Source: Dysidea avara (lineage: Eukaryota > Porifera > Demospongiae > Dictyoceratida > Dysideidae). From it: a DNA stretch of 64,000 bases. A program made the translations under genes and the position numbers. The stretch spans positions 17,992,220 through 18,056,219 of the forward strand of contig NC_089275.1 of assembly GCF_963678975.1 (NCBI RefSeq), read 5' to 3'. Positions 6,198 to 42,635 of this stretch are shown here, piece after piece (position 1 is the first letter of the stretch; the number at the start of each line of letters is the position of its first letter). The notes under the pieces are model-generated. The model was not told the DNA's origin and searched no databases. It saw only the letters and a list, made by a program, of their open reading frames with translations.

Positions 6198-6784
6198 TAT
6201 AGCTGTAAAAAAAGTGCGCGTCCAACTAAAGCAGAGCTAACTGTGACAAAAAGTAATGATATCATACTGCGGCCATGTACGAGGTGTGCAAGTTGTAAAA
6301 TCCATATTAGCTAATCAGATAATACAATGTTATTGTTAAAGTGTTAATGAGAACTATGTGCTGCTAGTTTATAAGTGTGTGAGCATCTTCATAAATGCCA
6401 CACAAATTTAATTTTCAATAAAGCAATGTGTATAGTTTCTCTGATAGCAATAAATAGTTTGAGTTTGGCCGCCTTTCCTGTATACGGCAATGCTACGAAC
6501 AAAGGAAAGGTGGCCAAACTCAAACTATTTATTGCTATCAGAGAATCTATACACATTGCTTTATTGAGAAATAAATTTGTGTGGCATTTATGAAGATGCT
6601 CACACACTTATAAACTAGCAGCACATAGTTCTCATTAACACTTTAACAATAACATTGTATTATCTGATTAGCTAATATGGATTTTACAACTTGCACACCT
6701 CGTACATGGCCGCATTATGATATCATTACTTTTTGTCGCTGTTAACTCTGCTTTACTTGGACGCGCACTTTTTTTACAGCTATA
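6198..6784. mobile_element. Large near-perfect palindrome (~290-bp arms), MITE
   Basis: The arms are almost identical reverse complements around a short centre near 6,490. The ends share TATAGCTGTAAAAAAAGTGC. That terminus resembles the ends of the three palindromes at 22.2, 27.9 and 42.1 kb (AGCTGTAAAAAAAGTGYGG), so they may belong to one superfamily. Mirror-image 72-residue ORFs on the two strands are a by-product of the palindrome, not genes. Confidence 0.85.
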
Positions 6785-7153
6785 ATTAACTTTACTGGTG
6801 GGCATGGCTAAATTAATAATAAAATATGTCCGAATTTACCGCAAAAAGTTGTGAGGCTGCTACTCCCTCTATGCTAAAGATACTGAATCCATTTTTTGGC
6901 CATTATTAGCAAATGAATACAGATATACTGTATACAAATTTGAAATAAATTAGACATTGTTTACTGGTAGTAATAATCAAAGTCCGAAAACTGGTAGGTT
7001 TGTCCGAACGTAGAATTTATCGGACCGAGCATACTATTGCCTACAACTTTCAAGCCATTAATCGTGCATAGCTGATTATTTGAGGATAATAACTACTTAG
7101 TGTAGCCTACATTTTGGTACAATAACGTAAGCTGCAGGATTTCTAGGAAGTGA

Positions 7154-22175: not shown

Positions 22176-22484
22176 ATCTAATCAAAAACAGCCAAAGGTT
22201 CGGCCCCTAAAAAGGCCATGGTAAAAAAGATGTGAAATCCAAGGTGGCGGCCAAGAAATGGCCGTGGTGGTATGTTAATGGTAAAATTTTTAACCACGAA
22301 AATTCATGTGAATTTGTGTTTCGGCACCAAATTCACCTGAATTGTTGTTATTAAAATTTTACCATTAACCTACATGTACCATCACAGCCATTTCTTGGCT
22401 GCCACCTTGGATTTCACATCTTTTTTCACCATGACCTTTTAGGGGCCACACCTTTTTTTACAGTATGGCTGTTTTTGATTAGAT
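22176..22484. mobile_element. Palindromic MITE beside minisatellite array 1
   Basis: Nearly perfect palindrome ending ATCTAATCAAAAACAGCC and its complement. The arms include AAGGTGGCGGCCAAGAAATG. The same element occurs at 27,848-28,180 and 42,120-42,444, and each copy is linked to a CCAAAGCCGGCC-type hairpin and a 31-bp minisatellite array. Here the hairpin CCCAAAGCCGGCC..GGCTGGCTTTGGG follows at about 22,510-22,540. Confidence 0.85.
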
Positions 22485-22689
22485 ATCACTTCTTTTTGTA
22501 TTTGTATACCCCAAAGCCGGCCATAGGCTGGCTTTGGGACTTTTTAAACCTATCCTTTTTTCTTTACCACAGGAACACTAAAAAGACAAAGCAGATTTTT
22601 AATACTTCAACTGTTTTTGATTTTATCAGTAATTATACAAATTATATACATACATTTATTACATGTTTATTATTCCCTACTGGATAACT

Positions 22690-23583
22690 TGTTCGCAATA
22701 ATGATCTCTCTACTAAGGGACTTGAAATGTACCTGAACTCTCTACAGGGTGATTTGCTTGTAGCTGAACTCTACACAGGATTCTCTCTAGAGGGTGAATT
22801 GTTTCTAGCTGGTCTCTTTACAGGGTGATTTGTTTGTAGCTGAACTATCTACACGGTAATTTGTTTCTAGCTGATCTCTCTACAGGATGGTTTCTTTGTC
22901 ACTGAACTCTCTACAAGGCAATTTGTTTCTAGCTGATCTCTCTACAGGGTGATTTGTTTCTAGTTGATCTCTCTACAGGATGGTTTCTTTATCACTGAAC
23001 TCTCTACAAGGTGACTTGTTTCTAGCTGATCTCTCTACAAGGTGACTTCCTCTAGCTGATCTCTCTACAGATTGATTTGTTTGTAGCTCAAGTGAACTCT
23101 CTACAGGGTGATTTGTTGCAGCTGAACTCTCTACAGGATGGTTTCTTTGTCACTGAACTCTTTACAAGGTGACTTGTTTCTAGCTGATCAAGGTGACTTC
23201 TTCTAGCTGATCTCTCTACAGGGTGACTTGTATCTAGCTAAACTATCTACAGGATGGTCTGTTTGCAGCTGAAATCTCTACAGGGTGACTTGTTTCTGGC
23301 TGATCTCTCTATAGGGTAACTTGTTTCTAGCTGAACTCTCTACAGAGTGGGTTCTTTGTAGCTGAACTCTCTACAAGGTGCATGACTTCTAGCTGATCTC
23401 TCTATAGGGTGACCTGATCTCTCTGTAGGGTGACTTTTATCTAGCTAAATTCTATATAGGGTGATTTGTTTGTAGCTGAACTCTCTACAAGGTAATTTAT
23501 TTGCAGCTGAACTCTATGCAGGGTGATTTGTTTGTAGCTGAACTCTCTACAGGATAGTTTCTTCGTAGCTGAACTCTCTACTA
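22690..23583. repeat. Minisatellite array 1, ~31-bp unit
   Basis: About 25-28 diverged units of the type TAGCTGAACTCTCTACAGGG followed by TGATTTGTTTG. This is the complement of the GTAGAGAGTTCAGCTAC unit of arrays 2 and 3. Adjacent units alternate GAACTCTC and GATCTCTC variants. The array lies on the hairpin side of the palindromic MITE. Confidence 0.9.
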
Positions 23584-24380
23584 AAAAAATAAAATTTTTG
23601 TGATCGCGTGTGGGTGGTTCGATTCGTTTGCTCTACATTTTCTCGACTTGGGGCCTGTTTATTTATTTATTTATTTATTTTCCAAAAATGTGTAGCCTCA
23701 GTTTGAGGATTAACGCACATATGAAACATGCATACAAAATGTTTTACAATATGATTGATTATGGGATTACTGATTGGTAGGGGAAAGTAATAATAATTTC
23801 AGTTGGTATACTTAAAAATTTGTAATGATTGTTGTTGGATATTTTATTACACAGGGGTTTAATATTACACATAAAACCATTGGCAATGAAAATATTGGCT
23901 CACCCCAACAATCCAGGCGCGAACTTTTTAACGAATCCCGGTTATCCAAGGCTAGATCGCTCCTTGGTTGAATACTTCAACTAGTTATACCGTTCGTGAC
24001 GAACGTTTTAAGTAATACAAATAATTTTATAAAAATCACCATCTCAATCCAATAGTCGCATACCCCGGCTGAGCACTCATTATTAGTGACGCGCGCGCTA
24101 TATTGCGTGGGCGAATTGCAATGGAGAAACATTCCGTTCTTGAATGTTTAATTCATCAACTTTTCAATGGCCAATAGGCCTTGTATATCATGCTAATAAC
24201 ACGTTAAACAGTTTTGATCACGTGATCCAACTTTGTGTTTTGTACATGTAATCAAATATATATATTTTTACAAATGGTAATTATAAAAGTTTCAAGTTAG
24301 CTGTTTGCAGTTCTCCAGAATGTAAACCTGTGGAAAAAATGGTCACATTTTAATTGGTGAATTTAAAAAAAATCTTTATC
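23584..24380. other. Non-coding stretch with a (TTTA)n tract
   Basis: A (TTTA)n run lies at about 23,650-23,682, preceded by GGTGGTTCGATTCG, which looks like a tRNA B-box and could mark a SINE relic. The rest is AT-rich without recognisable genes. A CpG-containing patch, GACGCGCGCGCTATATTGCG, lies near 24,090. Confidence 0.3.
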
Positions 24381-24384
24381 GTGC

Positions 24385-24461
24385 ACACACTACACACACG
24401 TACACAATCACACACACACACAATCACACACACACACACAATCACACACACACACACACAA

Positions 24462-24497
<36 letters not shown>

Positions 24498-24657
24498 ACA
24501 CACACACACACAATCACACACACACACACAATCACACACACACACACAATCACACACACACACACAATCACACACACACACACAATCACACACACACACA
24601 ATCACACACACACACAATCACACACACACACACACACACAATCACACACACACACAA

Positions 24658-24733
<76 letters not shown>

Positions 24734-24862
24734 CACACACTACACACACTACACACACTACACACACACACACACACACACACACACTACACACACACAG
24801 AGGCACACACACACTACACACTACACACACTACACTACACACACTACACTACACTACATATT
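24385..24862. repeat. (CA)n microsatellite with regularly spaced ATC interruptions
   Basis: Almost pure ACACAC for ~480 bp. The first 280 bp are punctuated about every 20 bp by CAATCACA, and the 3' part by CTACACA. Long ORFs of alternating Thr and His (plus) or Cys and Val (minus) come from the repeat and are not genes. Confidence 0.95.
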
Positions 24863-24869
24863 CACATAA

Positions 24870-26060
24870 AATAAAACACTACAAGGTATGGTAAGGGTTG
24901 TTTACATTAGTTAATTTTGTGGTGCACCACATAGGGAAATGTGTATCTGCGATCAAGAATTTAATTTAGATTCTAATATCATAAACAGATGGTCAGACTA
25001 CCTTTGTCAACTAGAGATGAACTGACTTTTGGTAAAAAGCGGGGGTAGCCAATGCCTTGGGACTCTTGTATGCTATATATGTGAGAAATCCAATCAAAAA
25101 TACACAAATATTTTAGAAACTAAATCCTAAATCCAAAATCACGTAAAAATAATGGAGAAAGTGAGTTTAACAAACTAGACAATGATCGATCACGAATAGC
25201 TAGAACAAGATGTAGATCAACAACTGTACAGGTAGTTACTAGTTAGCAATCTCACTAAATGCCTTTAAAATACATAAAGATTAGGACTCTTGTACACACC
25301 ATTTGGGTGCTTTGCGTGGGCGTTGGCAACCCCTCTGGTACACCATTTCAGTGTTTTTCGTGGGCGTTGGCTACCCCTCAGGAAAAATAAAAAAATAAGA
25401 GACTATACAGAAGCTGAGCCTGTACAGAAGATGAGCCCTGCACAGCTACGTGGGCTTCTTTGTACAAAGCATACACTCACCTTATTTGCACATTGCCCAA
25501 TCGTTATCATGAACGCTTCCACCTCCCACCGTGCACTAAAGTAATAGAAACATCATTAAATAATATAATCATTAATATTATTATCTTTCAACTCAGTTGA
25601 TGTAATACTGGTTCACCAGTGATTCATCGCTGAAATCACCTCTCATTTCTTGAGTAATCAGTATCCAGCAGTGGATTTAGTCAGATTTTTTGCACAAGTA
25701 CACCTCACAACAACCGAAATTAAGCAATAAACATTTGTACTAATACCACAACTGGTAGGATTTCACCTTATTCTTCACCTTCCATGTGTGCTGAATCTTT
25801 TCTCACCTTCAAATAATGCTCAGTTCATTGAGTTTGACAGCATAGTGACTCGTGATACAGTCAAAAATACTGGAAACCTCCAAATTTCCCATAAGAGGCG
25901 CCCCACTTTTCTAATTAACTGATCACGTGATACCTGCTACAAAGACGTTTTGGGGCTTAAATCAAGGAGATTTAGCGTGCCTTAGGAAATTTTATTGAAA
26001 ATCGTGAGATCAGCAAGCGGTCATGATATGAAGGCTGAAATCGTGTGTCTCACGACCAAA
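24870..26060. other. Non-coding stretch, nothing recognised
   Basis: It contains a short imperfect duplication (CACACCATTTGGGTGCTTTG and CACCATTTCAGTGTTTTTCG, each followed by CGTGGGCGTTGGC) at about 25,295-25,378. There are no recognisable coding exons. Confidence 0.35.
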
Positions 26061-26159
26061 TCGTGAGAGTTGAGAGGTCTGTATAACCCCTCCCTCCTCC
26101 CCGAAAGGAAATCAAAGCAGAGTGCCATCCGGTATGGCAGAAAAACTTTCTGCTTGATA

Positions 26160-26295
26160 TTATACGCATACCAGGTTAGTTACACTCATATGGTACGGAT
26201 TGCTGTACCATACGCGTATGGTTGTACCGCACGCGTATACGCGTATAGTATGTACCATACTGATGCGTATGGTACAAAATACGCATATGGTATAG
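26160..26295. repeat. Cluster of TACGCGTATGGTAC palindromes
   Basis: At least six variants of the near-palindrome GTACCATACGCGTATGGTAC are packed in 135 bp, in both orientations, just before array 2. The cluster can form alternative hairpins. No function can be assigned. Confidence 0.7.
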
Positions 26296-26319
26296 AACAC
26301 AGCTACAAGCAAGTCACTA

Positions 26320-27640
26320 TGTAGAGCTGATCTCTCTACAGGATGACTTTTTCTAGCTGAACTCTCTACAGGGTGATCTGTTCATAGCTGAACTCTCTAC
26401 AGGGTGATTTGTTTCGTGTGCAGCTGAACTCTCTACATGGTGGTTTCTTTGTAACTGAACGCTCTATATGGTGATGTCTTGTAGCTGATCTCTCTACTGG
26501 ATGACTTGTTTCTAGCTGATCTCTCTATAGAGTTATAACTTTCTCTATAGAGTTATAACTTGTTTGTATAGCTGAACTCTTTACAGAGTGGTTTTTTTTG
26601 ATTGGTTGCTGAACTCTCCAGCTACACAGTGACTTGTTTGTACTACAGAGTGACTTGTTTGTAGCTGAACTCTCTACAGAGTGACTTACTTGTAGCTGAA
26701 CATTGTATAAAGTAACTTGTTTGTAGCTGATCTATATGAACTCTCTACTGGGTAGCATTTTTGTAGCTGAACTATCTACACAGTGACTTGTTTGTAGCTG
26801 AATTTTCTACAGAGTGACTTGTTGTAGCTGAAATCTCTACAGGGTGATTTGTTTATAGCTGAATTCTCTTCAATATGACTTATAATGTTCTGAATCTCTA
26901 CAGCGACATATATGTAACTCACCTTGTAGAGAGTTCAACTACAAACAGATCACCCTGCAGATAGTTCAGCTACAAACAAGTCACCCTGTAGAGAGATCAG
27001 CTAGAAGAAGTTACCTTGTAGAGAGTTCAGCTACAAAGAAACCATCATATAAAGAGTTCAGCTGCAAACAAATCATCCCGTAGAGAGTTCAGCTACGAAC
27101 AGATCACCCTGTAGAGAGATCAGCTAGAAGAAGTCACCTTGTAAAGAGTTCAGCTACAAAGAAACCACCATGGAGAGAGTTCAGTTGAACAAATCATTTG
27201 TAGAGAGTTCAGCCAGAAACAAATTCACCCTGTAGAGAGATCAGCTAGAAACAAGTCACCCTGTAGAGAGATCAGCTACAAAGAAACCATCCCGTAGAGA
27301 GTTCAATTACAAACAGATAACCCTATAGAGAGTTCAGCTAGAAACAAGTCACTGTGTAGAGAGATCAGCTAGAAATAAGTCATCCAGAGATCAGCTAGAA
27401 ACAAGTCACCCTGTAGAGAGATCAGCTACAAAAAAAAACAACCTGTAGAGAGTTCAGCTACAATCAAGTTACACTATAGAGAGATCAGCTAGAAACAAAA
27501 GAGAGTTCAGCTGCAAACAAATCACCCTGTAGAGAGTTCAGCTAGAAACAAATCATTCTGTAGAGAGTTCAGCTAGAAACAAATCACCATGAAAAGAGTT
27601 CAGCTACAAACAATGAGAGTTTCAGCTACAGTTCAGTTAT
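26320..27640. repeat. Minisatellite array 2, inverted halfway
   Basis: From 26,320 to about 26,900 the units read TAGCTGAACTCTCTACAG. From about 26,925 onward they read CTGTAGAGAGTTCAGCTA, the opposite strand. The switch occurs around TATATGTAACTCACCTTGTA. The unit is about 31 bp as in arrays 1 and 3. Toward 27,600 the units degrade. Confidence 0.9.
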
Positions 27641-27847
27641 GTGAGAAGTCACCTTGTTAACTACAGTATGTGATAATCATCATTCAATGTTAAATAATTA
27701 TACAAATATTTCATCAGACAAAAGCTATACACACTATTACTTCCTTTGTTCCACAATTCCTGCAGTAAAGAGAAAAAAACAAGTTAAAAGGAAGCATCAA
27801 AGCCATATGGCCAGCTTTGTGGCTTGCAATACAAAAAGAAGTGATAT

Positions 27848-28180
27848 CTAAACCAAAACAGCCAAGCTGTAAAAAAAAAGTGCGGCCCCCAAAAAGGCCA
27901 AGGTGAAAAAAGATGTGAAATCCAAGGTGTCGGCCAAGAAATGGCTATGATGGTAGGCTAATGGCAAAAAGTTTAATTACAAAAATGCAGGTGAATTTGG
28001 TGCCGAATCCTAGTGGAGGAGGCAACACAAATTCACCAGAATTATCGTGATTAAATTTTTTTTCCATTAACCTACCATCACAGCCATTTCTTGGCCGCCA
28101 CCTTGGATTTCACATCTTTTTTCACCTTAGCCTTTTTGGGGGCCGCACTCTTTTTTTACAGCTTGGCTGTTTTGGTTTAG
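27848..28180. mobile_element. Palindromic MITE beside minisatellite array 2
   Basis: Ends ATCTAAACCAAAACAGCCAA and its complement; arms near-perfect and about 150 bp. Immediately upstream lies a hairpin relic, CATCAAAGCCATATGGCCAGC, corresponding to the CCAAAGCYGGCC hairpins at the other two copies, then about 130 bp of shared AT-rich sequence (AATAATTATACAAAT) joining it to the array. Confidence 0.85.
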
Positions 28181-28261
28181 GTAGACAATAATATCAGAGT
28201 ATCAGGGGGTATCCATATATGGTATCCATATACATAATACAAAGAAACAAAAGTGTGCATT

Positions 28262-28515
28262 AGTGGTTTAAGGCTTTGATAGTTCTTGTAACAGCTTGTA
28301 AGACTTCACAACCTTCTACAATGGCCTAAATGGTAAAATTCAACAATGAAACACCACTGAGAGGTGATTGTTTGTTGCATGATCAATTATATCAGACTAT
28401 ATAGCTAGAGTAGCTATATAGCTGCTCAGAGTACTTTCCCCTTTTTAATGGTGTAGATCTTAACTTGGTTGTTCCTCTCCCCTTGTCAGCTCCTGGATCT
28501 GCCCCTGGCATTCTT
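28262..28515 (+). repeat. Partial copy of the CAGGGGCAGATCCAGGA MITE (copy 2)
   Basis: It matches the 3' half of the copy at 61.2-61.65 kb, including AAGACTTCACAACC, AATGGCC and the terminal TCCTGGATCTGCCCCTG. The 5' half is absent. Confidence 0.6.
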
Positions 28516-29261
28516 GGCACATAGGTTAATCATCAAAAATTAGGGATGATAATTCACTTGTCTAAACTATGTAGTATCTTAACAACTGATCAGTTCTTGT
28601 ATTCATCATAATGATGAAAATGGTGCATGCATGGTGGCAATTAAGTAGTAAGTCACTATAAGTAGCTTCCAAAAGTTGATACTTAATATTTTTAGCCAGA
28701 ATGAAGCATTAATATTGCACTTGTATTCAAATACAGTAGTAGTCTTGATGAAGTCACTTATGATCGCTCATGAACAGGATAATTCTTAAAATCAAATTGG
28801 AGGCACCTCTGAGAAATCCTGATTACAGGCTGTCTGTTTGCATTGACGTACAGTTTTAATGTCATAATGACACAATACATTCTTTTTTAAAGAAACTTAC
28901 AATTATAATTAGTTAATAGCTGATTAACAGGCTAGGGTACATATCTATAATGCATGTGTGTGATGTGACATCACTAGTGTGATGGTATAAATCTAAATAA
29001 TATAGGATAAACTGCAAAATATAAGTGTTCTATATATTTCTATGATGAGTTTTATGGGCTGCATTTGGGGGGCGTCCAGGACTTTGGGGGGGTGCCTACT
29101 ATACAGTATGATAATGTACTTTACAGTTGATGGGCCATAAAGTACAGTTCCTACCTAAACCATACTTTTTCACCCATGCAAAGTTCTATAATAAATGAAA
29201 ATAATTTCTATGGCATATTTAAGGTATTCAACCTAAATGTCAGTAAGCGTTTACCTAAGAC
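28516..29261. other. Non-coding stretch, nothing recognised
   Basis: AT-rich sequence with G runs near 29,065-29,095 and no recognisable coding or RNA features. Confidence 0.3.
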
Positions 29262-30700
29262 CTGCAGCAGGGTAAAGCAACTGTTCTTCTATTTTTGGAA
29301 TTGCAAAATTTTCAAGAATCATCCTTGGTGCTGCTTATAGTTGATAGATTCTATTATTGTAAATTATGATTAGCATTACAACAAATGCATACATGTAGCT
29401 CTATGTGGCACAGTTATTATCTGCCAAATATCTAAATCACCAATATTTTCTCCCACCAAAATTTTGTGCCATACAGTATTTCTCTGTTATCATTATTGCT
29501 ATACCCTAGGCTAATAATCAGCCACACCACTTGCTTGATAGTTTAGAAAGAAGAATGATTCAAACACTGATGTCTGTTTATGGACCACTATTTAAGATCT
29601 GATGGATAATATTCCACAGATCTTGGCAAAAATATAATACAGTATGTCATGTAGGTGGAGGAGAACTTCTCTCCAGAGAAATGTGGACTTTGTAAACAAT
29701 CAGTGTTTTATAAGAGAGCTTAAAACATTTGATTGTGGGTTTCAGTTTAGAACTGCAAATGTAGTGTGATTTCCTTTATCCAGATACCTGTGTTCCAGTG
29801 ATCACAAAGACTTGCGTATTATGTCCATTCCGAATCAAAACCAACAGGCTCTCCCTCCCCTGTAAAACTTTCCTCCTAGCTGCATAAGATAAGTCTTACA
29901 ATAATGACTGCCAAGAATGTACTGCACGATCAACTACACATATGTACATATGCGAATGCTTGTGTCATGCTACATTTTTTTTTAGTTTGTTGGCTAGAAA
30001 TTGGACGAGAATAATTGAAGGTCAATTCGCCAAATTCACAAACTTTGCATCATACATTAGCAAGAGTCCATAATAGAGAAGGCTAATCTCTGTTATTAAT
30101 TCTTGACATTAGTTAAACTAATCAGTGTCATCATCGATACACAATGACAGATAATCTGCTTCCATCATTGAAATTAATTTTTTAAGGAAAATGTTTTGGA
30201 CTTTGTGTATACAAGCTATGTGTACACAAATTCTTGGGTGGGCAAGGTTTGCACTTCCTCAAATAAGTATTCATGCTTAAATTTCAAAATTTTAATTCAC
30301 ATACATGTTATAGTTGGTCTATCAGGCACACATTACAACTGTAGCATTGAAGTATAATACTACTGTATGCCACTGACACTGACAAATATGTAATGACGTA
30401 CACTGTACTTAATGATAGTACTTGTGACATGTCAATAGTAAACTATAAGTGGATAATTGTATAGAGTTTTTGACATAATATTTAAGACCTTAAGATTTTA
30501 TTTAGGACACATAGTTGATGTTCTTACACTGGGTGTTACACAGGTACAGTCATCAGGTCAGTGGTGATATTTGATGATAGACTGTTTGAAGGAGAGAGCT
30601 ATGCTGTGTAAGTTTATTGTGCCACCAACTCTGTTTGCTACATATCTTTGTGTGCAAGTTTTGCTATACACAGACATGGCTTTGTAGTGATATAAAATGT
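29262..30700 (+). repeat. Diverged duplicate of BBS2 intron 12/exon 13 region (56.06-57.45 kb)
   Basis: Shared segments lie in the same order and orientation: ACCTGCAGCAGGGTAAAGCA (29,262 and 56,063), GATTGTGGGTTTCAGTTTA (29,732 and 56,709), and ACATAGTTGATGTTCTTACA just before the exon 13 copy. Differences and indels are scattered, so the duplication is old. Confidence 0.75.
30544..30607 (+). pseudogene. Duplicate of BBS2 exon 13, still open with intact splice sites
   Basis: It has the same 64-nt length and phase as the exon at 57,332-57,395. It encodes [20 protein letters not shown], against [20 protein letters not shown] in the gene (three substitutions in this stretch). The acceptor (TTACACAG) and donor (GTAAGT) are intact. 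No partner exons in frame were found nearby and the exon 12 copy at 33.77 kb is frameshifted and lies downstream, so a working paralog is unlikely. Confidence 0.7.
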
Positions 30701-30707
30701 AAGACAT

Positions 30708-31110
30708 TAGAGGTGTACCAAAAATCAGATGGCCTGTTGTCAGTTATCGGCTATATTAACCTTGTTTTTGCATATGTATTGGGTCATAAAGTACAGATAT
30801 ACAAGAACCGTGTATTTTTGGGTGCCTGTGCTCTAGCAATATCCTAGATTTATGTACATGTACACGCAACTGTTGTTAAAGTCTCACACTGTCACTTTAT
30901 AACTGAATCGAGAAGATCTATACTACCATATCGGATCGGCTTTGTTTACTGATAACATATTCTTAAAATGCCATATTGGTTCACCTCTAATGCACATAAT
31001 TATTCGTATGTAGTGGTCAAAATTAGGGGTGTACTGATATACCAATGCATATTCTATTGGTGGCCGATATGGAAATTTTACCAATATCGTTTGGTTACCA
31101 ACCACACAAC
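30708..31110. repeat. hAT-like MITE remnants with AGAGGTGTACC ends
   Basis: The left end ATTAGAGGTGTACC and right end GGTTCACCTCTAAT (about 30,983-30,996) are inverted. A second terminus of similar type, TTAGGGGTGTACTGATATAC, starts near 31,023. TATCGG and CCGATA repeats inside recall the elements at 49.9 and 52.75 kb. No exact target duplication was found. Confidence 0.45.
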
Positions 31111-31757
31111 AATCAATCGTGGTAGTGAGTTATAAAAAGCAGCCTTGCTATGAATGAACCCAGGGGGGATAGGACAAGCCCACGTGAATACGTAATAACA
31201 TTGCACAAGTAATGAAAGTATTTCACGTGAACTGAATAGACCCTGTACAAAAAGTAGAGGAAGGGGATCGACAGGGATTAATACATATTTTAGTTCTACT
31301 TAGTTTGTTGTGTGCAGTGGTGTGATTCACGATTGGAAAAACGCTGCCGTTATGGAGTAATTAGACTTACAACGATGACGATGTGTGGCGATGACGACTT
31401 TCACATCAACAGTAACAGTGGTCATCAATGATTACAATACAATCGTTTATTGTACGATCTATTAATTCAACAAGTAGTATGACTACGTTTAAAATAAATA
31501 TTTTTGTTAGCACTCCATAGTGCACGTGGTCATGTCCTACCCCCTGGAATGAACCAGTAACACAACTTTAAACAACCAGTCATTACTGAAATATGGAGTA
31601 GTGCAGACCAATCTTAGTGGAAGCATGCATTAAAATATTTGTGGGTGCCGGTTGAGGCCACACCACCACAGGCAACCAAGCATTGCCAGTGAGTAAGTAG
31701 ATTTCTAGGAAAACAGGATGGAAAGCAGGAATGGGACAGCGGGAGCAGGAGCAACCT
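31111..31757. other. Non-coding stretch, nothing recognised
   Basis: No coding exon, RNA gene or clear repeat was recognised here. Confidence 0.3.
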
Positions 31758-32672
31758 GCCTGATAAAGGTCATCATATCAATGATTTTGCAGCACAATGC
31801 TTCTTGGTAGCATTGTTGGATCCTTCCACTAAAACATTCTAAACACTCTAATAGAGCAGTCACTTGCACTGAAACACTCTAATAGAGCAGTTACATTAAT
31901 TATCTCACTGGACCTACATTGAAAATCTGTGAATTAATGGACTATAGCTAGCATAGATTAGATATATAGACTAACTAACTCATCAATACTGAATCAAAAA
32001 CATTTTATTTAAAGATTCAACTCTTAAACATGAAGAGGGTTTCAAAGTATTCTAGTTAACTGACAGTGCCTATTACTGCTTTGAAAACTGCTTCTGCTGC
32101 TTCCAGATAAGAAGTTATATTGATAGAGACATCACAACAGTTGCATTCGGTATGTGTCAAGCTGAGGTGGCTTCAATAAGAAGACTTAAGAACAATGTAA
32201 ACAGTCATGAGGAGAGCTGCTTCAGCCTGACAAGCAACTGTTGCATATCCCATCATGTAGCCTCTTATCTGAATACCCTGAGGATGCAGGTACAACTTGC
32301 TGCTTTTATATGGTATATGCAGGCACTGTTAGATGTAAACCTATTCATGTCCAATGGTTGAATCTTTCAAAATGTTTATAGTTTAAGAGAGTTTTCATTT
32401 TCAGTGTTGGTGACTTAACTAGTCCATATAGGCATATGCCTAATCTATGTTCCATCAGTTCACAGACTTTCAATGTGGGTACCTGCAGCTGGTGGGGTAC
32501 GTAGCTATATAGTTAACAAAACATTTTTGACTGCTCTATTAGGGTATTTTACTGCAGATGACTGCTCTATTAGAGTGTTTCAATCATTTTAGAAGAATCC
32601 AACAATGCTGCAGAGAAACATTGTGCTATAAATTCAACCTTTATATTGGCACAATGACCTTTATCAGTCATT
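31758..32672. mobile_element. ~0.9-kb inverted-repeat element with doubled CTCTAATAGAG motifs in each arm
   Basis: The left arm reads TGATAAAGGTCAT, AGCATTGTTGGAT, then two copies of ACTCTAATAGAGCAGT(C/T)A. The right arm is the reverse complement in the same order, two TGACTGCTCTATTAG copies at about 32,528 and 32,559, then ATCCAACAATGCT and ATGACCTTTATCA. Arms are about 140 bp with indels. The interior has a short ORF without similarity. Confidence 0.65.
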
Positions 32673-33159
32673 TTCCATTGGTCGTTTTGGTCCCGTTTTT
32701 CTAGAATTCTACTTACCCTTGCCAGCAATTGTTAGCACTTCGTATTGGAGTGCAAGAATGATGAAATTCTTCAACATGATATATCTTTTTTAATCATCAT
32801 AGCTCCAGGTGGTCCTCACTAATTCAAATTAGACTAAGGCACACATAGTATGCTGTGAAGTTTAGTCGTTAATGAGGTATTTAAAATCAATAGATACCTA
32901 CGTGTAAATCAATAGATACCTACGGGTAGGTATCTAAACTGGTTAGATACCCGTGTCAAAATTTTTTGTCACGTACGTCACTTGTTTTACTGGATTCCAG
33001 TCACAACAGCCATCAGAAATCATCGCTAGAGTGTAAAGAAAGCATCGCTAGATAATAAAGATGATTGTATTCACCGACCTACCTACACAAATTTTCTGAA
33101 ATTTTGCCCATGCAACATAAGATTCAATAGATATGGCCTTCCAGCCGACAAATACCCTA

Positions 33160-33620
33160 AGATTAAAAGTGTGTTCACTGGGCTACTTAGAAAAGGTTAA
33201 ATGAACACTGTAACTACAGTAGCTTAATTGTTATGAAGCAATGAACAGCGACGAATTGCATCTCTGTATTTCATAATTCTTGCCACGTGTTTAATTTTGA
33301 TTGTATTTTACTCATGTGAGTCATATATGGCCTGATAGAAAATTTCACAATGAATCGAATGGAAGTTGTTGCAAGGTGAAAGAAGCAACTACCATCGAGT
33401 TATCAACCATTTTATAAAGGTATGTAAACGGTTAGCATGTTTCCTTATACTGAAAAGTTATTTTCACGGCTAGTTTTGACCTCACCATTTAGTGTTAGGG
33501 TAAAACCCTAGGTATCATTGTAATCTTTGTTACATCACAAGTAGAATGATGTAAATTTCATAGCCACAGGATGAACGCTCCAAAAGGTACAGTGCTTTGT
33601 GCAGGGTATATGTATTTATT
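33160..33620 (-). repeat. Inverted diverged copy of BBS2 intron 9 sequence (50.4-50.8 kb)
   Basis: The reverse complement shares AACCTTCT/AGGTTAAATGAACA, AAATTTTCTATCAG, CACCTTGCAACAA and GGTAAAACCCTAGGTATCA blocks with 50,425-50,800 in the same order. It could be part of the rearranged BBS2 duplication or an ordinary interspersed repeat. Confidence 0.55.
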
Positions 33621-33767
33621 AAGTTTATATCCAGTTTTCTGGATTGTGTGGGTGTAAGGTTTAAACATGGTGTCTGTCTTAGAGAAATTCCACAATATTA
33701 GTGTAAGTGATTTTCACATAAGTATTTAATGTACATCACTACCTACATGTGTGTTTCACATTAACAG

Positions 33768-33880
33768 ATAACAAGTTACAAGGATCCCACACGTTCAAAT
33801 TGACATGTCAGTTACCATGAGTGTCATCCCGGCTGAAACATTGCAAGTGTCAACTTTTGTCAATCATTGTTATAAATTGA
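33768..33880 (+). pseudogene. Broken duplicate of BBS2 exon 12
   Basis: After an intact TTAACAG acceptor the sequence matches the exon at 52,425 over ACAAGTTACAAGGATCCCAC, then ATGAGTGTCATCCC and GCTGAAACA. An insertion within the stretch after CCCACAC shifts the frame, and a TGA follows. The 3' part of the exon is lost. Downstream intron sequence (ATACATTTGATTGTGGTATT at 34,006) also matches 52,559 onward. Confidence 0.75.
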
Positions 33881-34469
33881 TTGTCCTGTGAAAACATTAA
33901 CATAATATAATATATTGTAACTATCGTGATATAAGTTCCATGATCTCCTAATTATCATGATATTAAAATTTTTGTATCATGGTATCACTAAATACAATAC
34001 ATTTGATTGTGGTATTAGTGTAGTGTCCCATAGCCTCATGTGCTATTGACCATAGAGAGTCGAGACTATAACAGTAGTGAGTTAATATTGTATTGTATTA
34101 TGCATATGGGTATGAGTTGTGTGTGTATTAGTTTATGTGTGGTGTATGTATATATTGTGTATATATAAGTGATGTAAATATTTGTACTACATTCTTGTAT
34201 TGTACACTGAACAGTCTCTTATGTGAATAGACAATCTATTCTTTCACTTCAAGTGAGCAGCAGACATGCTTCACCCTCATGCATACTTTTAAGCAGTATA
34301 ATGGACAGAGCACACTGTGGAATAGGCACTTGCGATAATATTGTGCCCTAAATGGCATCTTTTATGTGTGGTATTTGTAGCATACATGATGTGTCACAAT
34401 GAGTTATGTGTGTTACTGATGAGTTTTGTAGCTATGTATGCACTAAGATATTACAGTAACACAGAGAGG

Positions 34470-34900
34470 GTTAACTGTGTACTGTATAATGTAGTTCAGT
34501 TCAGACAATCCAGTGGTCTGATTTTCATTTCCACGAATGTAACATCCTAACTAGACCATGATCATTGTTGAGTTATATCACACTACATTCATTGTACCAT
34601 CATCCACCTCTATTTGTTGCATAATTACCATGCATCGGTAGAATTATCATCATGATCTTGATCACAATATGTAAATGATGAATGAATGTCATCACTGATG
34701 AAAGGATCAGTCAGCAAATCCTAGTTGATATTGGTCCTCAGCTGGTCACATTGCAAATTGTTTATTTTGAAGATGAGATTTTGTTCCATTAGTAACTTGA
34801 TACAGTTGATAGTGTATTCACAGTTCCCAATTTCCATGGCTGGTCAGGTAATTCATAAATCTCCAGAATTCTCCAGTAATATCACCAAACCCATCTTCAT
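34470..34900 (-). pseudogene. Decayed duplicate of the fibrinogen-domain gene at 54.67-55.44 kb
   Basis: Segments GTACTGTATAATGTAGTTCA, CCAGTGGTCTGATTTTCATT and CAATTTCCATGGCTGGTCAG match the 3' half of the fibrinogen-domain gene nested in BBS2. Internal deletions and indels remove any long reading frame, and the signal-peptide end is missing. Confidence 0.7.
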
Positions 34901-34973
34901 ATAGTGCTCCCTTGATTATCAGAACACTTAGTTATCCAAGCAGTAAAAATGACTGCTCTATTAGAGTATTTTG

Positions 34974-36585
34974 TCTAAGATGTACTGTGTAACAACACAT
35001 TGGCGACATTTTAATTTAGCGAAATTCCTACTTGTAAAAATAGGCAATATGCACTGTTGCAACATGTTTAAGCTGGGTTGTGATTTAATAGTCATGATCA
35101 GTCACTGTATGCATCAGTAAAACAATACTGTAACTCGATCAGTAGCTAGTATGATAGGCTGGCTACCATACGCATCCCCCTGGTCAATATCAGAATTTAT
35201 TGACTAATTATTTTTCTTTCATGCATGCAGACTATACCGTCATGTCAACATTGCAGTATAATTTTATTGCAGCAAACGTTAAAGAGTATGCCCTATAGGG
35301 ATTAATTACATTATAGAAACTGATCATGATCTGAGGTGGTATAGGTGTAAACTGGAAAACAATGCATACAGTTGAGAATAAAAAATAGTGAAGTCTATAA
35401 CACTCACAACAACTTAACAAAAAAAAAACACTTTGATAATCAGCACACTTGTCCATTCATACCCCATGCATTTTTGTATATTTATTATTTTAGCATAGTT
35501 GGAAATTTCCTAAGTGGCAAGGGAAGTACATGAAAGTAACTACATATTGGGCCCCTGAAATCATTGACATCAGTTACATCACTAGTACAGTAGTACTGTG
35601 ACCACTAACATTAATTTTTTTAGTTATATACGTTATATAAAATCCCTCTTGAAAATCTGTGCCTGTTGCAGCTGCTGAGCATACACATGTGCATGCCAGA
35701 GCGTTGACATTGAGCTCAAGCAAATTCTGGAGCCAGCATAGTTGTGCCATTTTAAAGGATTAGTGCATGCAAAGACTGTGACAATAATAATTTTATCCAT
35801 GCAGTGCTATAGCTATTGCTTTCTGGTACTGTAGCTACAGAATGCAGATTATTATTGTGCATAGAACTATAATAACAGCTAGCTAGTTGGTATTTACATT
35901 TCAATACATGACTGGTAAACTCTTGACATGCACAGCAAACAGAATAAGCACACTTCCCATTAAGAAATACACACTACTAATCAGTTATATTTAGTGGCTA
36001 CGCACACAGTGTTGCATATAATAATACTAGCTAGCTGGAACTCAATATCACAAACCATTCTAGATTGCCTAATAGTATGTTTGTCCAAAATTCTGATAGA
36101 ACACTCACTAAGAATGTAGAACTTGGGAAGTACTAAAAAGGGGGAACACATGCAGATATTGTATAGTAAAATATAAGCTTTGTGGTAGCTATATTGCATG
36201 GAAATCTGTGTAGCTACTTCTGAAACAATCATGCATTGACACAAGCATTTTTGTAAAACTGAAATAATAATAGCTAACTATATAGTTGGTATAGTTACAT
36301 TGATTTTGTGTAATTCATTACTGGCATAACTGGTAACTCTTGGTATGCATGCACACACTGAGCAAAGAGAATATATCCACCAGTGCCGGGCAATGTCTAG
36401 ATCTCACCTGCATGTACGGGGGGCCATGTAGGGCACAGCATGTTGTATGATAGCTATATAGCTGTAATATGAAGTAGAATTTCTGGTACCCCCAGCCGAA
36501 TATTTGCAATTTGAAGGATTGAAAACTAACAATGCCAGTCTACACTACTGAAACTTCCTCCCGAGATTTTTCAGGGGGATCCCCC
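34974..36585. other. Non-coding stretch with a diverged ~400-bp tandem duplication
   Basis: Blocks at about 35,885-35,960 (TAGTTGGTATTTACATT ... ACTGGTAAACTCTTG) recur diverged at about 36,283-36,370 (TAGTTGGTATAGTTACATT ... ACTGGTAACTCTTG). No coding exon was recognised. A TGACTGCTCTATTAGAGTA motif lies just before, at 34,950. Confidence 0.4.
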
Positions 36586-36587
36586 TT

Positions 36588-36815
36588 AAAATTTATTTAT
36601 TTATTTTTTTACTTATTAATGCTTTACAGCACAAGTGCACAAGTGCTGAGGGTCTGTAGGGCCCAGGTCCTACAGCCTGCTCAAAGACTTTAGCTACAGA
36701 AGGTGTGTTTGAAAAGTTGGAGAAAGGAGAAAAAATCCATGACTGGACCTAGGTGGCCTCGAACCCGCAGCCATCCGATTTACGCTCAAACGCTTACAGG
36801 GGTCTACCAGGTGGT
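36588..36815 (-). mobile_element. tRNA-derived SINE with (AAAT)n tail
   Basis: On the minus strand, a D-arm/A-box-like CCTGGTAGACCCC is followed ~35 bp later by the B-box GCGGGTTCGAGGCC, in the order and spacing of a tRNA gene. A ~120-bp unrelated body follows, ending in AAAAAATAAATAAATAAAT at about 36,590-36,612. The A-box is imperfect and the T stem pairs poorly, so this is a tRNA-like pol III promoter and not a tRNA gene. Confidence 0.6.
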
Positions 36816-36974
36816 CAGGATGTTTTCTCCTTGTTATTTTCATGTAATTATATCCATAGGAATTCTAGAGAGTAACTCATTATCTCTAAGTACCCCAACT
36901 AGAACCAAATGGACACTAGTTTATTTATTACAAATCTCCTATACTTCCCACTAATAAGCCTGAAACATATATAT

Positions 36975-37806
36975 ATATCAAGACACACGGTAGTGTGTCG
37001 TGCGGCCCAAGAAGCCGGCGCGCAACCCCGTGAGTATATTGACAGGAAGAAAGAAAACGCAATTTTCGCACCTCCGTAGCTCTGTGCTGCCTTGATGAAA
37101 CAAGACAAATTTTGCTGTGTACATTCCCTCCAACTTCAGTACTCCACATTCCAAATTTGAGCGAAAGCGCTTCAGGAATTCCTGAGATATGCGACTTCAA
37201 AAATTGGCTTAGTTTCTTCGTTTTTTTCTTCTTATTTTTCTTCCTCTTTTCGCACACTTACAAAAACTGCTATAAAACGCGAACGCGTTATCGGATTGCC
37301 TTGAAATTTGGCACACAGAAGGGGGGTATAAAGGCGCATCTCTGTACCAACTTTGGCAGGAATACCATAAACAGGCAAAGAAATATGAGCGATTATGCAC
37401 GAAAAATAACACCAATATGTTGTCACGCCTACAGGGTAAACCGCGTATGGGAAGAAGCTGAAAATCGGTGGGTGAATAGGTTAACTATTGAACCTCAAAC
37501 CTTTTGTGGTTTGAAAGAAATCGAGCTAAAAACCAGGAAGATACAGCGAAAAAATCAACAGTGTGTAACAATTACGCAATCGAGATTAGCTAATTTTTTA
37601 TTATTATTATTATTATTATTATGCTTGCCAAGCCTACCAGATAAACCACTTGGGGTAATGCTTTGAAAATCGCTGTACAGATGGAGTTATCATCTTAGAA
37701 AGGCTCTTCAATGGTGTAGAAAAATCAGACTTAAAGCCACGGAGTTATAACACGAAATCCAACTTGGTGTAGCAAGTGCGAGATCGAGATACTCTAATAG
37801 AGCAGT
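36975..37806 (+). repeat. Repeat-like segment with a 184-codon ORF and CTCTAATAGAG motifs at its end
   Basis: It starts near ATCAAGACACACGGTAGTGT, a start partly shared with about 450-520. An ORF at 37,112-37,666 has a poly-Phe run and a poly-Leu run from T-rich and TTA repeats, and matches no family I know. CTCTAATAGAGCAGTCA sits at the 3' end at about 37,788, just before array 3. Possibly a non-autonomous element; the ORF is probably fortuitous. Confidence 0.4.
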
Positions 37807-37819
37807 CATCCTAATAGAG

Positions 37820-40800
37820 CAGTCACCCTGAACAGAATTCAAGAGATCAGTTAGAAATAAGTAACCTGTATAGAGATCAGCTACAAACAAATCACCCTGT
37901 AGAGAGTTCAGCTACAAACAATTCACCCTGTTCAGACATCAGTTAGAAGAAGTTTTCTTGTAGAGAGTTCAGTTACAAACAAATCACCCTGTTGAAAGAT
38001 CAGCTAGAAGATGTCACCTTATAGATAGTTCAGTTACAAAGAAACCACCATGTAGAGAATTCAGCTACAAACTAGTGACCCTGTAGATACATCAGCTAGA
38101 AGAAGTTACCTTGTAGAGAGTTCAGCTACAAAGAAACCATTCTGTAAAGAGCTCAGCTGCAAACAAATCACCTATACAGAATTCAGCTACAAACAAATCA
38201 CCCTGTAGAGAGATCAGCTAGAAGAAGTTACCTTGTAGATAGTTCAGCTACAAACAAATCATCCTGTAGAGAGATCAGCTAGAAGAAGTTACCTTGTAGA
38301 TAGTTCAGCTACAAACAATTCACCCTGTACAGAGCTCAGTTAAAAAGGTTTCCTTGTAGAGAGTTCAGCTACAGACAAATCACCCTGTAGAGAGATCAGT
38401 TAGAAGAAGTTACCTTGTAGATCGTTCAGCTACAAACAATTCACCCTGTAAAGAGATCAGCTAGAAGAAGTTACCTTGTAGAGAGTTCAGCTACAAAGAA
38501 ACCATCATGTAGAGAATTCAGCCGCAAACAAATCATGTATAGAGAGTTCAGCTACAAACAAATCTCCCTGTAGAGAGATCAGCTAGAAGAAGTTTCCTTG
38601 TAGAGAGTTCTGCTACAAAGAAACCATCATGTAGATAGCTCAGGTACAAACAAATCACCCTGTAGAAAGATCAGCTATAGAAGAAATCACCTTGTAGAGA
38701 GTTCAGCTACAAAGAAACTATCATGTAGAGAGTTCAGCTACAAACAAATCGGCCTGTAGAGAGATCAGCTAGAAGAAATTACCTTGTAGAGAGTTCAGCT
38801 ACAAAGAAACCATCATGTAGAGAGTTCAGCTGCAAACAAATCACCTGTAGAGAGTTAAGCTACAAACAAATCTCCCTGTAGAGAGATCAGCTAGAAGAAG
38901 TCACCTTGCAGGGAGTTCAGTTACAAAGAAATAAACCATGTAGAGAGTTCAGCTGCAAACAAATCACCTGTAGAGAGTTCAGCTAGAAACAAGTCACCCT
39001 GTAGAGAGATCAGCTAGAAACAAGTCACCTTGTAGAGAGTTCAGCTAGAAGAAGTCACATTGTAGAGCTACAAAGAAACTACCATGTAGAGTTCAGCTGC
39101 AAACAAATCACCCTGTAGAGAACTCAGCTACGAACAAATCGCCCTGTAGAAAGATTAGCTAGAAGAAGTTACCTTATAGGGAGTTCAGCTATGAACAGAT
39201 CACCCTGTAGAGAGTTTCGGAATAGATCGCAAAATGGCATACATAAATAAAAAATACCATTCCGGTTTAATATGAATAGGAGTAACTAAAATGTCGGCCT
39301 CCTTAAAATTCTCGGCATCACCCAAATAATCCGGAAAAAAATAAACAATAAAAACAAACAAAACAAAAAATAACATATTTCCCGATAAATCCTTTACCGT
39401 ATAATAAGGATGAAACGGTATTTTCTCTACATCAGAAGGCAAACCCATAGGATTATTTGACCCCACTTTATGCAAAAAATGCAAATGAACTAACGCCAAG
39501 AAGGACAAAACAAAAGGAAACAAGTAATGTAAACTAAAAAACCTATTTAAAGTCGCATTACAAACCATCGGCCCACCTCAAATCAAAACAACAATATCCT
39601 GCCCCACATAAGGAACAACTGAAATAAAATTAGTGATAAACAAATCACCCTGTAGAGAGTTCAGCTACAAACAAATCACCCTGTAGAGAGTTCAGTTACA
39701 AAGAAACCACCATGTAGAGAGTTCAGCTGCAAAAAAAATCAATCACTCTGTTGAGAGTTCAGCTAGAAGAAGTCACCTTGTAGAGAGTTAAGCTGCAAAT
39801 AAATCACCCTGTAGAGAATTCAGCTACAAACAAATCACCCTGTAGAAAGATCAGATAGAAGAAGTTACCTTGTAGAGAGTTCAGCTACAAAGAAACCACC
39901 ATGTAGAGAGTTCAGCTGCAAACAAATCACCTGTAGAGAGTTCAGCTAGAAACAAGTCACCCTGTAGAGAGATCAGCTAAAAACAAGTCACCCTGTAGAG
40001 AGTTCAGCTAGAAGAAGTCACATTGTAGAGAGTTCAGCTACAAAGAAACTACCACGTAGAGAGTTCAGCTGTAAACAAATCATCCTGTAGAGAGTTCAGC
40101 TAGAAGAAGTCACCTTTTAGAGAGTTCAGCTACAAAGCAACCACCATGTAAAGAGTTCAGCTGCAAAAAACTCAATCACCTTGTAGAAAGATCGGCTAGA
40201 AGAAGTTACCTTGTAGAGAGTTCAGCTACAAAGAAACCACCATGTAGAGAGTTCAGCTGCAAACAAATCACCTATAGAGAGTTCAGCTATAAACAAGTCA
40301 CCCTGTAGAGAGTTCAGCTAGAAGAAGTCACATTGTAGAGAGTTCAGCTACAATGAAACTCCTATGTAGAGAGTTCAGCTGCAAACAAATCACCCTGTAG
40401 AGAACTCAGCTACAAACAAATATGCAGTGTAAAAAGATCAGCTAGAAGAAGTTACCTTGTAGAGAGTTCAGCTACAACGAAACCACCATGTAGAGAGTTC
40501 AGCTACAAACAAATCACCTGTAGAGAGTTCAGCTAGAAACAAGTCACCCTGTAGAGAGATCAGCTAGAAACAAGTCACCTTGTAGAGAGTTCAGCTAGAA
40601 GAAGTCACGTTGTAGAGAGTTCAGCTACAAAGAAACCACCATTTAGAGAGTTCAGCTGCAAACAAATCACCCAGTAGAAAGTTCAGCTATGAACAGATCA
40701 CCCTGTTGAGAGTTCAGTTAGAAACAAGGAATCCTGTAGAGAGATCACCTAGAAGTATCGCCTTGTAGAGAGTTCAGCTACAAACAAATCACCTGTAGAG

Positions 40801-41716
40801 AGTTCAGCTACAAACAAATCACCCTGTAGAGAGATCAGCTAGAAGAAGTCACCTTGTAGAGAGTTCAGCTATAAAGAAACCACCATGTAGAGAATTCAGC
40901 TGCAAACAAACACCCTGTAGAGAACTCAGCTACAAACAAATTGCCCTGTAGAAAGATCAGCTAGAAGAAGTTACCTTGTAGGGATTTCAGCTACAAACAG
41001 ATCACCCTGTAGAGAGTTCAGCTACAAAGAAACCATTCTGTAAAGAGCTCAGCTGCAAACAAATCACTTGTACAGAATTCAGCTACAAACAAATCACCCC
41101 GTAGAGAGATCAGCTAGAAGAAATTACCTTGTAGATAGATCAGCTACAAACAAATCACCCTGTAGAAAGATCAGTTAGAAGAAGTTACCTTGGAGAAAGT
41201 TCAGCTACAAAGAAACCATTTTGTAAAGAGCTCAGCTGCAAACAAATCACCTGTACAGAATTCAACTACGAACAAATCACCCTGTAGAGAGATCAGCTAT
41301 AAGAAGTTACCTTGTAGATAGTTCAGCTACAAACAAATCTCCCTGTAGAGAGATCAGCTAGAAGAAATTACCTTGTAGAGAGTTCAGCTACAAAGAAACC
41401 ACCATGTAGAGAATTGAGCTGCAAAGAAATCACCCTTTAGAAAATTCTGCCAGAAACAAATTGCCCTGTAGAAAGATCAGTTAGAAGAAGTTACCTTTTA
41501 GAGAGTTCAGCTACAAAGAAACCATTCTGTAAAGAGCTCAGCTGCAAACAAATCACCTATACAGAATTCAGCTACAAACACATCACCCTGTAGAGAGATC
41601 AGCTAGAAGAAGTTACCTTGTAGATCGTTCAGCTACAAACAATTCACCCTGTAGAGAGAGCAATTAGAAGAAGTCACCTTGTAGAGTGTTCAGTTACAAA
41701 GAAACTACCATGGAGA
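37820..41716. repeat. Minisatellite array 3, ~31-bp unit with higher-order structure
   Basis: Over 100 units of the type GTAGAGAGTTCAGCTACAAA followed by CAAATCACCCT. Variant units recur in a fixed cycle: ..AGAAGAAGTTACCTT, then ..AAAGAAACCACCAT, then ..GCAAACAAATCACCT, then ..AGAAACAAGTCACCCT, a ~4-unit higher-order repeat of about 124 bp. The array is interrupted once, by a mitochondrial insertion at 39,217-39,636. Confidence 0.95.
39217..39636 (-). pseudogene. Nuclear mitochondrial insertion: cytochrome b fragment
   Basis: Cytochrome b is the mitochondrially encoded core of respiratory complex III. On the minus strand ~140 codons read [65 protein letters not shown] and [19 protein letters not shown], all hallmark cytochrome b blocks of the C-terminal half. 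The single TGA falls at the conserved Trp of the W-G-G block and so is sense in mitochondria. There are no other stops or frameshifts, so the insertion is recent. Both ends are sharp against minisatellite units. It cannot be expressed as a functional protein from the nucleus. Confidence 0.95.
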
Positions 41717-41739
41717 TTTCTGTAATCAATATAATATTA

Positions 41740-41978
41740 TGTGACCGGATTTGCGAAAAGGGGTCTTCCACACACATCCAATTCCGTAAACGTTGGAGAC
41801 CATACCTCAGTGTTCAAGTAACATATTAACCTGAAAATGCCACCACTTATTCAGCTATAGTGGTGCTCACCACTGTCCAAACTTCAAGGCAATAGCTCTT
41901 TCCAATCTGAAGTTATCAATTGTCAAAGTTGGCAAATTGGATGTGTGTGAAAGACCCCTTTTCGCAAATCCGGTCACA
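41740..41978. mobile_element. Palindromic TGTGACCGG-ended MITE with TA target duplication
   Basis: The ends are TGTGACCGGATTTGCGAAAA (41,740 on, first T at 41,740) and its complement. TA dinucleotides flank both ends, suggesting a Tc1/mariner-type target. Related to the nested element at 13,437-13,663, which shares TGCGAAAAGGG. It separates array 3 from the hairpin and palindrome that accompany it. Confidence 0.8.
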
Positions 41979-42062
41979 TATGTATTATACAGTATATATA
42001 ATTTGTACATTTACTGATAAAATATTTAAAGTACATCTACTTCATCTTTTCTTAGGTTAAAG

Positions 42063-42444
42063 TCCCAAAGCTGGCCATAGGCCGGCTTTGGGGTATACAA
42101 ATGCAAAAAGAAATGAAATCTAATCCAAAACAGCCAAGCTGTAAAAAAAGTGTGCGGCCCTCAGAAAGGCTATGGTGAAAAAAGATGTGAAATCCAAGGT
42201 GGCGGCCAAGAAATGGCTGTGATGGTAGGTTAATGGTAAAAATTTTAATAACGACAACTCAGGTGAATTTTGTGCCAAGACCAAGCGGCACCAAATTCAC
42301 CTGAATTGTTGTTATTAAAATTTTTACCATTAACCTACCATCACAGCCATTTCTTGGCCGCCACCTTGGATTTCACATCTTTTTTCACCATAGCCTTTCT
42401 GAGGGCCGCACACTTTTTTTTACAGCTTGGCTGTTTTGGATTAG
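42063..42444. mobile_element. Hairpin plus palindromic MITE beside minisatellite array 3
   Basis: The hairpin CCCAAAGCTGGCC..GGCCGGCTTTGGG (about 42,063-42,098) precedes the palindrome 42,120-42,444, which ends ATCTAATCCAAAACAGCC and its complement. Same arrangement as at arrays 1 and 2. The right end is only ~190 bp upstream of the BBS2 start codon. Confidence 0.85.
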
Positions 42445-42635
42445 ATATATATATATATGCATGCACAGTTATTACATCTAGTGGGTACAAGCCGTACGGT
42501 GTTGCATATAAATTATACTAGCTAGTTGACAGAATCGTTAATTAAATAAATCACTATAATGTACCAAGGCTTGAAAGACTTAGCGCACAAAGAATAATAT
42601 TAAGCGCCACTGTTATATTATTAGTTGAAAGCGTA

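Follow-up and report, generated by a model that had tools for sequence, protein, structure and literature searches.

Layout of the composite repeat

The window analysed here, a 64-kb stretch of contig NC_089275.1, contains three copies of a composite repeat that joins an array of 31-bp minisatellite units to an AT-rich linker, a short hairpin, a spacer and a palindrome of about 320 bp, and these three copies, all from the one window, constitute our sample. Orientation is defined by the unit GTAGAGAGTTCAGCTACAAACAAATCACCCT, such that each copy reads from the array through the linker, hairpin and spacer to the palindrome; by this definition copy 1 (22176-23581) lies on the minus strand, with copy 2 (26290-28181) and copy 3 (37842-42447) on the plus strand. 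The order and relative orientation of the parts are identical in all three copies. The initial annotation had placed three copies with this shared arrangement at these sites and had oriented copy 1 opposite to copies 2 and 3, as is borne out by the arrays (minus in copy 1, mainly plus in the others). Repeats were detected with Tandem Repeats Finder, inverted-repeat searches and an edit-distance scan for the 31-bp unit (threshold ≤11).

When the parts were placed at random, three palindromes came to lie within 500 bp of the correct side of three arrays in 10 of 2,000,000 trials. Chance, however, is not the relevant alternative: the parts are visibly homologous in sequence, so that the proper comparison is with common descent. 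All three arrays of the window carry a palindrome, all three palindromes of this family carry an array and, judged by their sequences, the three copies come from one origin.

The palindrome lies at 22176..22486 (minus strand) in copy 1, where the arms match over 79 nt at 85% without gaps (125/133 with gaps), at 27849..28181 (plus strand) in copy 2 (126 nt at 94%, ungapped) and at 42121..42447 (plus strand) in copy 3 (134 nt at 98%, ungapped, around a 10-nt loop). With pairwise identities of 88.3% (copies 1 and 2), 91.0% (1 and 3) and 89.2% (2 and 3), the predicted ~320-bp palindrome is present in each copy. The palindrome alone carries terminal inverted repeats (TIRs), a feature of miniature inverted-repeat transposable elements (MITEs). 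By eye, it is flanked by TA on both sides in copy 2 only, by TA and TT in copy 1 and by AA and TA in copy 3, and no 9-10 bp target duplication of the type made by Mutator-like elements (MULEs) was seen by eye around any of the three palindromes. The window also holds an open reading frame (ORF) for a MULE-type transposase (9708-10421, 238 aa; ZSWIM1-3 RNaseH-like, E 1.6e-36; MULE transposase, E 1.5e-22), without any shown link to the palindrome.

Over 122 gap-free columns, the two arms of a palindrome differ from each other at 12, 10 and 1 positions in copies 1, 2 and 3, respectively (mean 7.7), compared with means of 13.2 differences for same-side arms and 12.8 for opposite-side arms of different copies. 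The true pairing of arms sums to 23 differences, against 33-42 for the five alternative pairings, and at 6 of the 25 variable columns both arms of one copy have changed together, while none splits all left arms from all right arms. This pattern suggests that the palindrome arms may correct each other, or may be renewed at copying. Counter to such homogenisation, the left arm of copy 1 differs from the two arms of copy 3 at 10 and 9 positions but from its own partner at 12, the right arm of copy 2 differs from the copy 3 arms at 8 and 9 positions but from its partner at 10, and the low within-copy mean is driven by copy 3.

A diverged relative without an array is found at 6165..6785 (plus strand), where a 59-bp edge (6165-6223) resembles, at 81%, the spacer and outer palindrome arm and runs into a different palindrome (6197-6785) with 290-nt arms that are 96% complementary and separated by 9 nt. 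The fold of a hairpin next to this relative is not significant (z -0.44). Thus, the palindrome end is able to exist without an array.

Between array and palindrome, the hairpin CCCAAAGCC..GGCTTTGGG of copy 1 (22510..22538, minus strand) and its counterpart in copy 3 (42064..42092, plus strand) fold strongly as DNA (z -4.19 and -4.95), as had been proposed, whereas the aligned sequence in copy 2 (27798..27819, plus strand) is decayed and its fold is not significant (z 0.15). The linker of copy 1 (22543..22680, minus strand) gives alignments with those of copies 2 and 3 that outscore all 300 shuffles; the linker of copy 2 (27660..27795, plus strand) is homologous to that of copy 1 but indistinguishable from shuffles when compared with copy 3 (score 44, shuffle maximum 50), such that the claim of a common linker holds for two of the three pairs. 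In copy 3 the linker spans 41717..42062 (plus strand), including a nested MITE. Relative to the element, the linker string ATAATTATACAAAT quoted in the initial annotation runs one way in copy 1 and the other way in copy 2. Hairpin and spacer together are 85.4% (copies 1 and 2), 92.3% (1 and 3) and 84.3% (2 and 3) identical.

Minisatellite arrays and the ends of the unit

The array of copy 1 (22683..23581, minus strand) contains 28 unit matches, all 28 on the minus strand. In copy 2 the scan returned 41 matches at 26288-27620, 24 plus and 17 minus: a plus-strand unit at the distal edge (26290..26326; 29/37 positions match the unit) is followed by minus-strand units up to about 26905 (26327..26905; 17 minus matches between plus matches) and then by plus-strand units again (26915..27625; 23 units, in A-B-C-D order). 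The copy 2 array holds an internal inversion. The copy 3 array is divided into a left part (37842..39216, plus strand), with its distal edge at 37842 in 13/20 alignment settings and 46 matches at 37799-39206 (45 plus, 1 minus), and a right part (39638..41716, plus strand) with 68 matches at 39621-41711, all 68 plus. The remaining unit clusters listed for the 64 kb have at most 3 matches each, at a mean edit distance of at least 9. Long 31-bp arrays are therefore present in all three copies, as described initially, but the array of copy 2 is not one-directional and that of copy 3 is interrupted.

Cutting the arrays into units gave 28 for copy 1, 16 inverted and 23 forward for copy 2, and 45 and 67 for the two parts of copy 3. 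Each of five unit types, A to E, is represented in copy 1, the forward part of copy 2 and the two parts of copy 3, with type D absent from the inverted part of copy 2, and copies 2 and 3 both show a recurrent A-B-C-D order. Unit order was assessed by taking neighbouring units as pairs, excluding pairs across unassigned bases, and comparing them with the pairs of copy 3 against 300 shuffles. The forward part of copy 2 (22 pairs) was matched by 0/300 shuffles and beats its own reversed order (147 vs 163); copy 1 (23 pairs) was equalled in 6/300 and the inverted part of copy 2 (11 pairs) in 18/300. Since copies 2 and 3 share unit order, at least these two would derive from an array that already had several ordered unit types, and the comparison points to a finished array being dispersed rather than to each array growing from a single seed unit. 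With unit types common to the arrays and their order partly common, the array was probably prebuilt and spread jointly with the palindrome. The proposal that the array travels with the palindrome accordingly finds support in the arrangement common to all three copies and in the shared unit types and order, most strongly between the forward part of copy 2 and copy 3.

All copies share a single end point on the palindrome side. Beyond the copies, the best similarity between flanks extends over 24 nt (E 0.02) on the array side and 18 nt (E 0.05) on the palindrome side; by this measure the flanks of the three copies are unrelated. On the array side, 345-nt distal stretches were compared with random control places in the window (500 or 300). 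An inverted palindrome end was not found there (39%, 88% and 30% of 500 controls score as high), nor was an inverted partner of the linker and hairpin of the kind expected for subterminal inverted repeats (65%, 90% and 91% of 300 controls) or a motif common to the distal flanks in pairwise comparison (84%, 44% and 17% of 300 controls). A two-ended element was rejected as a candidate, all three of these signals falling within the control range. As nothing is common beyond the array side, the array is the visible edge of the unit and not its interior. Thus, of the initial view of the array as the variable interior of a large mobile element, the descent of the array with the palindrome stands, while its interior position does not.

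The distal edge falls at unit phase 1 in copy 1 (19/20 settings of a cyclic alignment, with 20 settings per copy) and at phase 5 in copy 3 (13/20); in copy 2 it is uncertain, with phase 1 in 7/20 settings and 11, 15, 17 or 27 otherwise. A fixed distal phase, suggested by a first alignment in which copies 1 and 2 started at the same unit position, was dropped after the cyclic alignment. A Helitron CTRR end was also considered, given CTAA just before the palindrome, yet homology continues past CTAA. No match to Rep/helicase was found among the only 12 ORFs scanned with Pfam. As a separate observation, an 18-mer, TACTCTAATAGAGCAGTC, is dispersed from 5614 to 57765 with 22 matches at ≤3 mismatches (0.08 expected); it is often paired, the pairs 31844/31875 and 32529/32560 facing each other like terminal repeats of one element, and one match, at 37790, is at the distal edge of the copy 3 array.

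An Rfam scan returned nothing at gathering score and ARAGORN no tRNA. The array pattern had 0 matches in viral contigs and 0 in genome contigs. An 18-base palindrome pattern gave 1 match in viral contigs and a 20-base palindrome pattern 1 match in genome contigs, each with only 19-21 nt in common with the window, and both were taken as chance. No account of this composite repeat was found in the open-access literature, judged from search results.

Later changes in copy 3 and other features of the window

The interruption of the copy 3 array is a nuclear mitochondrial DNA segment (39217..39637, minus strand, 421 bp) that carries a cytochrome b fragment (phmmer E 2.4e-53). Its minus strand reads through 140 codons without a stop under code 4 and matches residues 146-284 of cytochrome b in the top phmmer chain, with TGA where tryptophan is aligned and AGG where arginine is aligned. 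This usage fits mitochondrial code 4, which is used by sponges, cnidarians and placozoans. At the junction, 7 bp of one array unit are missing, as would be expected if mitochondrial DNA had joined in at a repaired break. The separate MITE nested in the copy 3 linker (41738..41980) has 46-nt TIRs and flanking TA and is absent from copies 1 and 2; together with a MITE at 13427-13663 it forms two members of another family, with a TIR near TATGTGACCGGATTTGCGAAAAGGGG.

Downstream of copy 3 lies a BBS2 gene (Pfam BBS2_N, E 2.5e-21; PDB BBS2, E 5.1e-15), the probable start codon of which, assigned by eye, is at 42636, placing copy 3 about 190 bp upstream. Taken with the code 4 usage of the mitochondrial fragment, this gene indicates a non-bilaterian animal. 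Elsewhere, the window contains a direct 300-nt repeat with 100% identity (18802-19101 and 19328-19627), either a recent duplication or an assembly fault, a (CA)n-rich repeat of about 470 bp (24384-24854) and, on the minus strand at 54673-55443, pieces of a gene for a fibrinogen C-terminal domain (E 5.3e-21 and 2.7e-7). At the window edge (1-345) there is an inverted repeat with 110-nt arms, 95% complementary and 125 nt apart.

Origin and relatives of the composite

We give an even chance to the explanation that the composite is a family of non-autonomous, DNA-transposon-like repeats in which one end can be recognised, as the copies are homologous over all parts, share a multi-type organisation of array units and stop alike where the palindrome does. 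This outer edge would then be the fixed end of a unit that is copied to new sites with its array already built; hairpin and palindrome would provide the ends, and another element would provide the enzymes. Slippage or unequal exchange would later alter the length and order of the array, with inversion as a further cause in copy 2. The missing distal end would either be the array sequence itself, through one-ended, rolling-circle-like copying, or have disappeared from all three of these old copies. Once the copies were dispersed, mitochondrial DNA would have entered the copy 3 array, most simply at a repaired double-strand break, and a MITE would have inserted into the linker.

Several observations weigh against this explanation. 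A second, distal end of the unit was not found in the distal-stretch tests of the three copies, and no transposase or empty site is linked to the composite within the window. The check for target duplication around the whole unit that the initial annotation had suggested was negative: no 6-mer just outside the palindrome recurs in the 160 nt at the distal edge, so that there is no duplication of at least 6 bp, shorter ones being below detection. The unit types were defined by eye from copies 2 and 3, and the reversed unit order scores nearly as well in copy 1 (166 vs 170) and identically in the inverted part of copy 2 (107 vs 107), such that a directed order is seen only in the forward part of copy 2. 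The linker and hairpin of copy 2 are poorly preserved. In addition, all three copies lie within 20 kb, a clustering that local duplication would also produce.

The composite may have spread with no transposon, through DNA repair or local duplication that carried the neighbouring palindrome along, whether by template switching or break-induced replication from the array or by ectopic exchange between arrays. We consider this somewhat unlikely. The route would account for the clustering, for a distal edge that varies within array sequence beside a fixed proximal part, and for arrays rearranged in situ, as by the inversion in copy 2 and the mitochondrial insertion in copy 3, but some proximal flank would be expected to be carried too, and no pair of copies has flank homology past the palindrome beyond the 18-nt match given above, the same palindrome edge ending all three. 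In our judgement it is unlikely that the composite was once a two-ended foldback or long-TIR element and that every copy has since lost the distal end, even though the palindrome is long and near-perfect, foldback elements are known with tandem repeats in or beside their TIRs (Tetris, from excerpts of PMC4079207) and the inverted arrays of copy 2 superficially resemble foldback arms. A distal inverted copy of the palindrome end is missing in 3/3 copies, and the plus-strand unit outside the inverted stretch of copy 2 points to an internal inversion rather than a terminal arm.

We regard as doubtful, though worth stating, a one-ended element in which copying would start anywhere in the minisatellite and stop at the palindrome, which would be both fixed end and working part and would be renewed from one arm at each round. 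Such copying would account for a distal edge that varies within array sequence and a palindrome edge that does not, for the lack of a second end and for arm changes that are shared within a copy. It is very unlikely that the palindrome is an independent MITE, inserted repeatedly at one place of an array-linker-hairpin repeat: the array-less palindrome with a related edge at 6165-6785 and the TA on both sides of the copy 2 palindrome would fit, but the spacer and junction are the same in 3/3 copies, two-sided TA is present in just 1/3, the 9-10 bp duplication was not seen by eye, and copies 1 and 3 are the closest pair for palindrome and hairpin-spacer alike. Assembly is notoriously prone to error at long arrays and intact mitochondrial sequence, yet a collapsed or chimeric repeat, or a chimeric mitochondrial join, appears highly improbable, given palindromes that are 9-12% diverged between copies and flanks and orientation that differ.

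Returning to the reading as a DNA-transposon-like family, the composite looks like another case of a familiar phenomenon, the spread of tandem repeats by mobile DNA. Rice minisatellites are reportedly propagated by transposable elements, and this work (Inukai 2004, known here by citation alone) offers a likeness in that mobile DNA disperses a minisatellite. Among known systems, the nearest are satellite-carrying HINE/Pearl elements, found in oysters and flies with Pearl in bivalves, and foldback elements, for example Tetris. Non-autonomous HINE/Helentron elements with central tandem repeats are described, in the excerpts used here, for oyster Cg_HINE (PMC7492417) and DINE-1 (PMC4067079). The composite resembles HINE/Pearl in the constant orientation of array to flank (3/3 copies, copy 2 with its internal inversion), in a one-sided hairpin, in dispersed copies and in that target duplication was not found. 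It differs in that no left flank with a subterminal inverted repeat and inverted repeat was found beyond the array, and in that the 5' and 3' subterminal inverted repeats of HINE were not found in the control comparison above. In addition, the HINE hairpin lies about 8-35 bp from the 3' end, whereas here homology runs about 350 bp beyond the hairpin, through spacer and palindrome. Further hallmarks of HINE are insertion into T-rich sites without duplication, as revealed by empty sites, and an autonomous Rep/helicase partner whose ends are the same. The oyster survey, as excerpted, used monomers of 100-500 bp (PMC7492417), compared with the 31-bp unit of the composite.

With the foldback element Tetris of Drosophila virilis, as portrayed in excerpts of PMC4079207, the composite shares long inverted repeats and internal tandem repeats, but here the palindrome is one-sided and the array lies outside it, not in paired terminal repeats; long inverted repeats at both ends enclosing the unit, as in foldback elements, were not found. 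The part of a review concerned with MITEs containing tandem repeats (PMC9659126) lists Xmix/Xstir of Xenopus and miDNA4, which are likewise non-coding and have inverted repeats tied to a tandem array; there, however, the repeats are inside the MITE, while here the array lies beside the palindrome. Because the unit lacks subterminal inverted repeats and a hairpin near the terminus, which help to define HINE, and the inverted repeats at both ends that define foldback elements, it is placed in neither group; its way of working is nevertheless best read as like that of HINE/Pearl elements with satellites or of foldback elements, although membership of neither is shown.

If the composite is mobile, the list of lineages whose tandem arrays are dispersed ready-made by mobile DNA would gain an animal that is probably non-bilaterian; the unit in this case is short, at 31 bp, and just one end is visible. 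Three kinds of later reworking of such arrays are also seen side by side here: an inversion, the capture of mitochondrial DNA and a nested insertion. Should there be only one end, the composite would offer a tractable case for the question of whether tandem repeats and palindromes need a two-ended transposon in order to spread or could do so by repair-type copying.

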